The translations under genes were made by a program, and so were the position numbers. Below are positions 23,244 to 62,647 of a stretch of DNA of 64,000 nucleotides, one piece after another. The DNA lies in the NCBI RefSeq assembly GCF_000969885.1, contig NZ_CP009501.1, forward strand, positions 2,308,908 through 2,372,907, written 5' to 3'. This stretch comes from Methanosarcina thermophila TM-1. GTDB taxonomy: Archaea > Halobacteriota > Methanosarcinia > Methanosarcinales > Methanosarcinaceae. How positions within the stretch are numbered: position 1 is the stretch's first letter; each line of letters begins with the position of its first letter. The notes under the pieces were generated by a model. The model had not been told where the DNA came from. It did not search any database and saw only the letters and a program-made list of their open reading frames with translations.

Positions 23244-23936
23244 ATGCTTGCAAAAGGCTCAGAACCCTGGCTTCTTACTGCTGCACTTATAACCATAACG
23301 TTTGCGGTTCTCTCCAAGGCAATGAACAGCTCCCATCTAACCCACGTTACTTACATATCAATGGTGCTGACTTTCTTTATGGTTCTTTTCTTTAGAGATC
23401 CCGAAAGAAAGGTGGAAGTTTCGGATACTTATATGGTTTCCCCGGCTGACGGCACTGTCATAGACATTCGGGGCCGGAAAGTCTGTATTTTCATGTTTCT
23501 CCAGAATGTACATGTAAATAGAGCTCCGATTTCGGGAAGGATCAGAGAAATTACTTACAGAAAAGGAGGATATCTTCCTGCTTTCTGTAAAGACTCTGAA
23601 AGAAACGAAAGAAACGAGTTTATTATTCACACCAAGTATGGGGATGTCAGTGTCACGCAGATTGCAGGCACTATTGCCAGACGAATTGTTTCCTATCCTC
23701 GAGTAAATGATTTTATCGAGCAAGGACAGCGCATTGGAATGATTCGTTTTGGGTCAAGAGTTGACGTAACAATTCCCCAAAACTTTGAAATCATAGTACG
23801 GAAAGGAGAGCGGGTACTTGCAGGCAAAACCATTATAGCAACAATAAAAAATGACAGGGATTTTGAACATGAACATATTTCAAATGTTAAGGCTCCCGGA
23901 CCTGGTCTCTCTCTTGAACCTTCTCTGCGGAATTAG
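23244..23936 (+). CDS. asd: Archaetidylserine decarboxylase proenzyme
   Basis: A 230-residue phosphatidylserine-decarboxylase-like proenzyme that makes archaetidylethanolamine. Two membrane helices precede the catalytic domain with SPADGTV (residues 66-72), FMFLQNVHVNR and the self-cleavage site RFGSRVD; cleavage between G170 and S171 would form the pyruvoyl group. It starts five bases after artA, with a ggggggatt site. It ends in TAG, one of only three UAG terminators found here. If UAG were read, the frame would run 48 further codons with nine cysteines, antiphase inside pssA. It overlaps pssA by 68 bases. Confidence 0.92.
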   Translation: MLAKGSEPWLLTAALITITFAVLSKAMNSSHLTHVTYISMVLTFFMVLFFRDPERKVEVSDTYMVSPADGTVIDIRGRKVCIFMFLQNVHVNRAPISGRIREITYRKGGYLPAFCKDSERNERNEFIIHTKYGDVSVTQIAGTIARRIVSYPRVNDFIEQGQRIGMIRFGSRVDVTIPQNFEIIVRKGERVLAGKTIIATIKNDRDFEHEHISNVKAPGPGLSLEPSLRN

Positions 23937-57744: not shown

Positions 57745-58524
57745 TCACAGCACAGAATACAACATCGATGCAGTTCCTATTCCCAGGGGCTCCATTACAA
57801 GTTGTACATTGTATTTCAGTCGAAGCTCTTCTGAGATTGCACAGGGAATTCCAGGGGTGGAAAGCACACAATTTTCTGAGAGTAAAGTTTCAGGGATCGT
57901 GTTTGCACATGGGGTCGCCTCAAAAATAGTGGAAAACCTTTTTGGGCTTTCAATGTCGAAAGGAATAATTCCAAGGCTTGAAACCGCTCGCTTCAGGAGG
58001 GTTTTATCAGTATCATACCCATATACCCTGAAACCTTTGTGCACAAGGTGTACTGCTCCGGGGAAACCTACCTTCCCGAGCCCCACAACCAGTACATCCT
58101 TTGAATCGGTTTTCTGATTCCTGGAAGCGATTTCAGCATAGATTATGCCTGTAGAGGGCTGGTTGTTGGCTATTTTTCCGTTTTTCAGGTTATGCGCAAG
58201 AAAGGTGTGATCATCTGCCATCAGGATAATATCGGCTCCGCTTCGAACGGCTTCATAATAGCCGCTAACATCTGACATGTCCGTAACAAAACTGTCAAAT
58301 CCGAAGTACTGCGTAATTGCATGCAGGGAAGCCGAAAAATTTTTTATTATGCCGTTTCCTGCGGTTACAGGCACGATACCGATTTTTTCAGAATTCGGAG
58401 AGGTGCCGTAGAGGGTTTTGCAGATGCCTTTTATGTCAAGTCCGGTTACTCTCCGTACAATAGAATCAGCTTCCTGAAGTTGTTTGTTAATATCTCTCAG
58501 ATCGTCTGGGGTTAAGAGTGCCAT
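57745..58524 (-). CDS. pylD: Pyrrolysine synthesis dehydrogenase PylD
   Basis: A 259-residue dehydrogenase that oxidises and cyclises 3-methyl-D-ornithyl-N6-L-lysine to give pyrrolysine. The NAD-binding motif is VLVVGLGKVGFPGA near residue 145. The N-terminal helical domain starts MALLTPDDLRDINKQLQEAD. Ggag precedes the ATG. It is the last gene of pylTSBCD, about 100 bases after pylC. Confidence 0.95.
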   Translation of the reverse strand: MALLTPDDLRDINKQLQEADSIVRRVTGLDIKGICKTLYGTSPNSEKIGIVPVTAGNGIIKNFSASLHAITQYFGFDSFVTDMSDVSGYYEAVRSGADIILMADDHTFLAHNLKNGKIANNQPSTGIIYAEIASRNQKTDSKDVLVVGLGKVGFPGAVHLVHKGFRVYGYDTDKTLLKRAVSSLGIIPFDIESPKRFSTIFEATPCANTIPETLLSENCVLSTPGIPCAISEELRLKYNVQLVMEPLGIGTASMLYSVL

Positions 58525-58627: not shown

Positions 58628-59719
58628 TTATGCAGCCGCTCCAAAGCGTTCCTTGATAATGGAAAGTCCTCTGCATTTTAGTGTCTCGGCTTCTTCCTTA
58701 TCCTTGCCCCAGAAAACCAGAGTGAATACCGGGTTCTTCCCTTTGCACAGGAAAATCTCGATGCCGGGTTCCTCATAGAAATTCCCGTAATCGCTGCCCA
58801 TGGAAAGTACCTGTTCCCCCACAGGAACAAGAACTCTGTTCTCATCGAGCATAAGGTGCTCGTAAATGCAGTAATTATCTTTTGGGAGAACCCTAATCTC
58901 CTCTATACCATCAGTAAAGGCTCGGAAAAGAAGCTCTATCAGGTTAATCCCTGAAGAGTGGTAAACGGCTGTCGGGGTCTGGCTTGGGAAGCGGGCATCG
59001 ATCTCAATTACCCTGAGCCCTTTAGGGCTGGAGATTGCTTCCACATCCATAATCCCTTTGAGGGAAAGATTTGCTGCAAGAACATGGGAAATCTGCCTGA
59101 AGGAAGGGTCAGAAGGAAGAGAAGTTACCATATGACAATCGTAAGTTTCGTCGATATGGACCTGAGTCTCTTTTACTACGGCAAAATTATTTCCATCCCC
59201 TACAACTTCAAGGGAGACAACCTCACCTTCAACGTATTCCTCAACCAGCATGCCGGGTTCAAGGGCTGCAAGTTCTTTTTTATCATAAATTATCCTTGCT
59301 CCGACACTGCTGCTTTCGCAGGGTGGTTTTACAAAAAAAGGTGGTTCTGAGGGGTTGTCCTGTGGCGTCGGGATTCCTATGGATTTAAAGTAATCTTTTG
59401 ATCTTTTCTTGTCTCTGCTGATCCGGTAAGCTTCAAAATCAAAAAGAACCGGGCAAGAGAATTTTTCTTTTATATGACTTAGAAATTCAATGCAGGCGAA
59501 ATTTTCGTTGACAGGAAGCAAAGCGTCAACTCTTTTTAAGAGGGTTAAAAGTTTTTCGTGCTCCTTTACTACATCAAAGCAATAAAATTCATCCACATAA
59601 TTTCGAATCAAAGCCTGTGGATTTTTATCTACTAGAACAACTTTCATTCCAGCTTTCTTAGACAGATATGCAGCTTCGAAGCCCTGGAGTTTCCCTCCTA
59701 TAAGGCAGATCGTTTTCAA
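58628..59719 (-). CDS. pylC: Pyrrolysine synthesis ligase PylC
   Basis: A 363-residue ATP-grasp ligase that joins 3-methyl-D-ornithine to the side-chain amine of lysine. It begins MKTICLIGGKLQGFEAAYL. The ATP-grasp region includes PPFFVKPPCESSSVGARII near 130, MLVEEYVEGEVVSLEVVG near 165 and RVIEIDARFPSQTPTAVYH near 240. The TTG at 59719 is taken as start because the product length and first residues then fit PylC; an ATG 21 codons upstream lies inside pylB. The start follows the pylB stop by one base. Confidence 0.94.
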   Translation of the reverse strand: MKTICLIGGKLQGFEAAYLSKKAGMKVVLVDKNPQALIRNYVDEFYCFDVVKEHEKLLTLLKRVDALLPVNENFACIEFLSHIKEKFSCPVLFDFEAYRISRDKKRSKDYFKSIGIPTPQDNPSEPPFFVKPPCESSSVGARIIYDKKELAALEPGMLVEEYVEGEVVSLEVVGDGNNFAVVKETQVHIDETYDCHMVTSLPSDPSFRQISHVLAANLSLKGIMDVEAISSPKGLRVIEIDARFPSQTPTAVYHSSGINLIELLFRAFTDGIEEIRVLPKDNYCIYEHLMLDENRVLVPVGEQVLSMGSDYGNFYEEPGIEIFLCKGKNPVFTLVFWGKDKEEAETLKCRGLSIIKERFGAAA

Positions 59720-59720
59720 G

Positions 59721-60773
59721 CTAGCACCCCAGGATTGCCTCAAAGTCCGCCTGCCTGGCAGGTTCCATACCAATGGATTCAAGTTTCTGGATAACGCTTT
59801 TTATGTCCCGGTCCCGCTCTTTAAGGTTGCGGTCATAGTTTGCAACGCCTTCCAGTCTGGAATCCGGCGGAAGAATGGAAGTAACGATATTTGCCCCTGC
59901 GTTTAAGCGTTGAACCATGCCTTCAATACCTTCTATGTCAAGGGAGGCAGGGATGAGGCGTTTTGGGAACAATAATCTAAGTACTGATATAATTTTCAGT
60001 TCCGAGAGGTTCGATTTATCCTTGAAACCCTCAAGTGGAGTTCCTTTCTGGGGCAAGAAGGTCATAACCCGTACCATATCTGGATTGTTGGCACCCATCC
60101 CTCTTAAGGACAGGATGGTAGACTCGATATCATTTCCAACGCCTGTGAGAATTCCATCTTCAATACAGTATCCCTGTTCTTTAGCAAAAAGGCGTGCATG
60201 GATACGTCCATCGAATGACTGTCCTACCCTGAGTTTTCTATAGAGTTCGATATCATATGTTTCCTGGTAAAGTGCCAGGAAGTTTGCTCCTTTTTCCCTG
60301 GCTTTGAGAAGAGTGTTATTATCCATCAGGCCCGGAGAAATCATTATGGGAAGCCCTAGTTCCTCTTTTACTATCTGGATAAGCTCAATGAACCTATCAG
60401 GATCCTCATAATAATAGGGATCTTCCCCCATGGTTAGGTCAACCATATGAAAGCCTGCTCCTTTCAGGGCTTTGCAGGTTTCTTTTATCTCTTCTTTGGT
60501 TAACCGATAACGATTGATCTCGTTTTTACAGTTATAGTAGCAAAAAGAGCATTGATTCTTACAATAAGTGGAAAAATAGATGAAACAATTAAGAAATACT
60601 CTGTTGCCGAAATAAAAATCTCTGACTACCCGTGCTGCGGAATAAATTTTTTCCAGTTCTTCTTCGGATTCAATGGAAAGCAGAGTCCTCAGGTCATCGT
60701 CAGATAATTGGTAACCTTCAATGATTTTTTCTCCTAGCCTGTCAAATAAATTAGTTGCCATTTTCTGGATCAA
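59721..60773 (-). CDS. pylB: Methylornithine synthase PylB
   Basis: A 350-residue radical SAM mutase that turns lysine into 3-methyl-D-ornithine. The cluster ligands are C71, C75 and C78 in TYCKNQCSFCYYN. Other matches are FHMVDLTMGEDPYYYEDPDRF near 110 and RVGQSFDGRIHARLFAKEQGY near 187. It starts at TTG 60773 with gagggtga upstream. It ends in TAG (59721-59723), so in this organism its stop is the pyrrolysine codon; read-through would add 20 residues (beginning LENDLPYRRE) after Pyl before a TAA inside pylC. Confidence 0.95.
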   Translation of the reverse strand: MIQKMATNLFDRLGEKIIEGYQLSDDDLRTLLSIESEEELEKIYSAARVVRDFYFGNRVFLNCFIYFSTYCKNQCSFCYYNCKNEINRYRLTKEEIKETCKALKGAGFHMVDLTMGEDPYYYEDPDRFIELIQIVKEELGLPIMISPGLMDNNTLLKAREKGANFLALYQETYDIELYRKLRVGQSFDGRIHARLFAKEQGYCIEDGILTGVGNDIESTILSLRGMGANNPDMVRVMTFLPQKGTPLEGFKDKSNLSELKIISVLRLLFPKRLIPASLDIEGIEGMVQRLNAGANIVTSILPPDSRLEGVANYDRNLKERDRDIKSVIQKLESIGMEPARQADFEAILGC

Positions 60774-61092: not shown

Positions 61093-62575
<1,483 letters not shown>

Positions 62576-62647
62576 TGGCGGAAACCCCGGGAATCTAACC
62601 CGGCTGAACGGATTTAGAGTCCATTCGATCTACATGATCAGGTTTCC
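62576..62647 (-). tRNA. pylT: tRNA-Pyl (anticodon CUA)
   Basis: A 72-base tRNA gene including an encoded CCA (62576-62578). The acceptor stem is ggaaacc with ggtttcc, seven perfect pairs, discriminator G. The anticodon CTA lies at 62615-62617 in actctaaat, inside an elongated six-pair anticodon stem. The single base between acceptor and D stem, small D loop and three-base variable region are the known oddities of tRNA(Pyl). The sequence almost matches the M. barkeri gene. It heads the pylTSBCD unit. Confidence 0.98.

Follow-up and report, generated by a model that had tools for sequence, protein, structure and literature searches.

In Methanosarcina thermophila TM-1, the pyrrolysine synthesis gene pylB ends in TAG, and this stop codon is conserved among relatives well above other TAG stops. 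The bare fact of a pylB TAG is already published: in the accessible part of a 2010 review, the stop is given as TAG in M. mazei, M. acetivorans and M. burtonii, and as TAA in M. barkeri (Rother and Krzycki, 2010; PMC2933860). The gene and the codon are the same as here, but in that part the review offers the pylB UAG as an example of a stop, without a survey of relatives, an analysis of the junction or a regulatory proposal. The extent of the conservation is, as far as the literature was searched, new relative to published work; no published survey or regulatory test of the pylB UAG was found, most subscription papers and bioRxiv lying outside the reach of the search. Among 338 ORFs in 464 kb sampled from this genome, 17 (about 5%) end in TAG, several of the 17 being doubtful ORFs or pyrrolysine genes, including mtmB, and the published share of TAG among Methanosarcina stops is 4-5% (PMC4153887). 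With such a background a lone TAG-ended gene is ordinary, and the conservation of the pylB TAG is the remarkable part. We tentatively favor, at somewhat less than an even chance, the reading that the pylB UAG is a codon of dual meaning, which selection maintains between pylB and pylC as a stop that is leaky and responds to pyrrolysine. This reading draws on sequence, junction geometry, the presence of a UAG-reading tRNA in the cluster, and the conservation described below.

The pylB-pylC junction

The window, a stretch of 64,000 nucleotides, comes from a 3.13-Mb genome assembled as a single contig. Its pyl genes all lie on the minus strand, in the order pylT (tRNA-Pyl, anticodon CUA; 62576-62647), pylS (pyrrolysyl-tRNA synthetase, TAA stop; 61093-62352), pylB (59721-60773), pylC (58628-59719) and pylD (TGA stop; 57745-58524). 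The pylB product, a methylornithine synthase of 350 aa read from a TTG start, matches 3t7v over residues 1-350 (4.6e-210), and its identity agrees with the neighboring pylT, pylS, pylC and pylD. Because tRNA-Pyl (CUA) is encoded in the cluster, UAG is decodable here, and an in-frame UAG, its tRNA and PylS thus occur together in one organism, as pyrrolysine decoding requires.

The last codons of pylB are ATC CTG GGG TGC, followed by TAG (59723-59721), as in the preliminary description, where the frame ended in ILGC-TAG. That description, which left the strand unnamed, also placed the pylC start, TTG, one base beyond the stop, and so it is: the spacer is a C (59720), the TTG occupies 59719-59717, and pylC runs from there to a TAA stop, an NTG one base past the stop being present in relatives as well. 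Reading the UAG as a residue had been said to add 20 codons before a TAA inside pylC, and translation bears this out. The possible extension, LENDLPYRRETPGLRSCISV (59720-59661, minus strand; 59658-59720 with its TAA at 59660-59658), is in a different frame from the pylC codons that it overlaps. Within the final pylB codons lies GGGGTG (59725-59730, minus strand), the likely Shine-Dalgarno sequence of pylC, judged from the sequence and its per-site conservation, and the TAG falls in the spacer between it and the pylC start. As a Shine-Dalgarno sequence, GGGGTG would be expected to pair with the 16S end. Across the relatives at L026-L048 the pylC start codon is TTG, ATG or CTG, its position fixed one base past the stop, and CTG is apparently used in five Methanosarcina genomes.

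RNA structure around the TAG was also considered, and its consensus fold is weak. Base pairing is possible between CCTGGGG, in the Shine-Dalgarno region of pylC, and a CTCCAGG among the first pylC codons (59733-59681, minus strand). The pairing is strong in most Methanosarcina and weakest in a genome with TAA as the pylB stop (G005), and the hairpin is not significant when compared with synonymous shuffles (median p 0.12). An RNA constraint that acts locally and escaped detection might also be what fixes the third base of the pylB stop.

Conservation of the stop codon

The junction was inspected in 92 Methanosarcinaceae genomes. It has the form STOP-N-NTG in 54, with TAG as the pylB stop in 52 and TAA in two, namely G005, which resembles M. 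barkeri, and a genome of g13. In about 28 genomes pylC overlaps pylB as NTGA, the stop being TGA by necessity, and the remaining junction forms have TAA (8 genomes) or TAG (2 genomes). TAG is never the stop of pylS (0/90 genomes) or pylC (0/89). The preliminary description had proposed a regulatory role for the UAG, which should then be shared by close relatives, and this expectation held within Methanosarcina, where TAG was found in 25 of 26 genomes, the sole TAA being that of G005, and not TAA or TGA in most. On one tree of the same STOP-N-NTG taxa, parsimony places two stop changes in pylB, nine in pylS and eight in pylC. The bases directly flanking the pylB TAG are variable on both sides. 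The codon itself is dispensable, since G005 and the g13 genome carry TAA and about 28 genomes have the TGA overlap. Outside the TAG-N-NTG group, pylB ends in TAG also at L072 (G096) and L138 (G083), at differing positions; these are apparently independent gains. Among 393 genomes drawn from the phylum, only one further lineage (G129) was found to have PylB, with TAA stops. A distant MAG (L023) adds a pylB-like frame that ends in TAG with no pylC after it, and all this is too little to use.

For comparison, six more genes that stop at TAG in this genome were picked on the same ground as pylB. TAG is retained in 4/29, 1/28, 10/27, 0/18, 4/26 and 1/20 of their orthologs, or 20/148 when pooled, vs. 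24/25 for pylB, the genome's own copy being excluded throughout. One comparator, at 2196-2819 of the window, has TAG in 11/28 orthologs, forming a clade-like block. Elsewhere in the window, a conserved gene at 23244-23936 (plus strand), presumably encoding phosphatidylserine decarboxylase, continues past the TGA at which most orthologs end, and its own TAG lies about 22 codons beyond that point. Retention was also simulated with a substitution rate taken from other pyl-region genes as controls. The chance that TAG would persist in 25 or more of the 26 Methanosarcina genomes was 0 to 0.04 under realistic stop frequencies, and 0.07 to 0.17 for the genus under equal ones. Selection on the pylB TAG is supported by these comparisons, not proven.

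Two genera are nearly without TAG stops, g7, which is Methanococcoides-like by inference, and g10, which is Methanohalophilus. In the pyl neighborhoods of both, pylB alone ends in TAG among the ORFs of 150 aa or longer (152 ORFs in 11 g7 genomes; 100 ORFs in 8 Methanohalophilus genomes). In 200 kb sampled from a g7 genome (G050), none of the 111 ORFs that reach 200 aa has a TAG stop. In one Methanohalophilus genome TAG ends 3 of 109 ORFs sampled; in two of the three a long open frame follows the TAG, which suggests a pyrrolysine gene or a broken one. A transporter-like frame of Methanohalophilus G064 (L315:11431-12297, minus strand) is followed by TAG and then by 91 open codons, and may likewise represent a pyrrolysine protein or a broken gene. 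The pylB TAG of these TAG-poor genera is the most striking single result of the survey and fits a functional codon, either a leaky stop or a sense codon.

The UAG could instead be just a stop passed down from an ancestor with a TAG-N-NTG junction, kept by inertia and a modest local constraint between the pylC Shine-Dalgarno sequence and start, with occasional read-through that has no function. We consider this possible if doubtful, only slightly behind the leaky stop. Retention is not significant under the mildest model, that of equal stop frequencies, the comparator at 2196-2819 has kept its TAG in a clade-like manner, and alternatives with TAA and TGA exist and work. However, inertia is unlikely under realistic stop frequencies, and it would have to account for a pylB TAG that persists in genera nearly devoid of such stops. 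Local constraint sits poorly with the variable flanking bases and with the stops taken by identical geometry elsewhere: across the same DNA, the remaining STOP-N-NTG junctions have mostly TAA or TGA, with three cases of TAG, in a tally that counts homologous junctions of related genomes more than once. The pylS-pylB junction of g7, TGA-G-GTG, is among those without TAG. Junction geometry as the cause of the TAG is rejected, since equal geometry elsewhere takes mostly TAA or TGA.

The tail beyond the UAG

In Methanosarcina the extension would be 14, 20 or 23 codons long. Synonymous variation of pylC is undiminished over the overlap (ratio 0.99), and a conserved extension peptide in this genus is ruled out by the variable length and by this ratio; protein sequence after the UAG is thus not conserved there. 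AlphaFold2 predicts the tail to be disordered (pLDDT < 50) after a well-predicted PylB body. Since the tail is variable, unconstrained and predicted to be disordered, it is the identity of the codon rather than the peptide that appears to be selected. The extension is also dispensable, because M. acetivorans pylB with TAG changed to TAA is functional in E. coli, according to the accessible part of the review (PMC2933860), and because M. barkeri has TAA.

The UAG might alternatively be a sense codon, PylB being a pyrrolysine protein with a meaningful C-terminal tail, with certainty in the genera that have reassigned UAG and residually in Methanosarcina. The tail is fixed in length at 42 codons in 11/11 g7 genomes and at 39 in 8/8 Methanohalophilus genomes, the former being the genus in which the G050 sample has no TAG stops, and pylC synonymous diversity is lowered over the overlap (0.55 in g7; 0.72 in Methanohalophilus). 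However, 5' ends without such an overlap dip similarly (pylS, 0.62 in g7; pylS and pylD, 0.76 and 0.77 in Methanohalophilus), and the reduced diversity is not taken to prove that the tail is coding in these genera. Tails of that length also appear in about 7-10% of synonymous reshuffles, the TAA-ended PylB of M. barkeri is complete and solved (3t7v), and the functional TAA version of the M. acetivorans protein adds to the case against a needed tail. We regard the sense-codon reading as improbable. Very improbable is a UAG favored without any role of pyrrolysine, for example because slower release at UAG helps ribosomes to restart on the pylC NTG close by: in 54/54 genomes the stop does have Shine-Dalgarno-like purines on one side and the start on the other, as is typical of a coupled junction, but the other STOP-N-NTG junctions of these genomes mostly have TAA or TGA.

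A leaky stop and its possible consequences

If the pylB UAG is a leaky stop, as we prefer, the release factor would terminate most PylB chains there, and charged tRNA-Pyl would let a minority of ribosomes proceed, for 20 codons here, and stop inside pylC. Such read-through is likely by analogy, because 20-30% of a reporter UAG is read through in M. acetivorans, according to the accessible part of the review (PMC2933860). A ribosome terminating at the UAG would cover the pylC Shine-Dalgarno sequence and could restart on the TTG. One that decodes the UAG would be lost for restart at pylC and would yield PylB with a floppy tail. More pyrrolysine might then mean slightly less PylC or active PylB, presumably a negative feedback of low gain, and the object of selection would be the codon, not the tail. 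The gain should be small, because with 20-30% of ribosomes passing the UAG, initiation of pylC would drop at most by about that much, even if coupling were complete. The possible hairpin could, by hiding the pylC Shine-Dalgarno sequence, change or even reverse the sign of the feedback. The fuller claim, that the UAG is a conserved sensor built on the genetic code, by which charged tRNA-Pyl would limit its own amino acid through tailing of PylB and lowered restart at pylC, we consider rather unlikely.

One comparison is with prfB, the gene for RF2, which is autoregulated at an in-frame UGA through programmed frameshifting with known stimulators. In both cases a gene of the decoding machinery bears a codon whose decoding is influenced by its product, and the pylB codon is conserved among relatives above background, as would be expected of prfB-type autoregulatory recoding. 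The frameshift stimulators are known in prfB, whereas for a cis stimulatory element at pylB the analysis observed a weak consensus fold and the possible pairing of the pylC Shine-Dalgarno sequence described above. Some SelD proteins contain selenocysteine, which is catalytic and SECIS-dependent. They resemble PylB in that an enzyme for synthesis of a recoded amino acid bears the codon for that amino acid, but the pylB UAG sits after the whole catalytic domain. The methyltransferase genes mtmB, mtbB and mttB likewise have an in-frame UAG decoded by tRNA-Pyl in the same cells; theirs lies inside the gene, has a catalytic role and is read almost every time, whereas that of pylB is terminal and its tail unconstrained. 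The internal pyrrolysine TAG of mtmB is present in all 28 copies of the genus. In the window, mtmB (monomethylamine methyltransferase; 51570-50194, minus strand) is interrupted by its pyrrolysine TAG at 50967-50965. In thg1 of M. acetivorans, an in-frame UAG specifies a dispensable pyrrolysine, according to the accessible part of the review (PMC2933860). It is internal and confined to a single species, while the pylB UAG is kept over several genera.

The conservation of the pylB TAG, where other genes swap their stops freely, hints at a built-in sensor of pyrrolysine supply. If this is true, a gene for pyrrolysine synthesis that keeps UAG as its last codon would carry its own simple gauge for matching the supply of pyrrolysine to demand. 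If the codon is fully read in the genera that have purged TAG stops, an enzyme of pyrrolysine synthesis would itself be a pyrrolysine protein.
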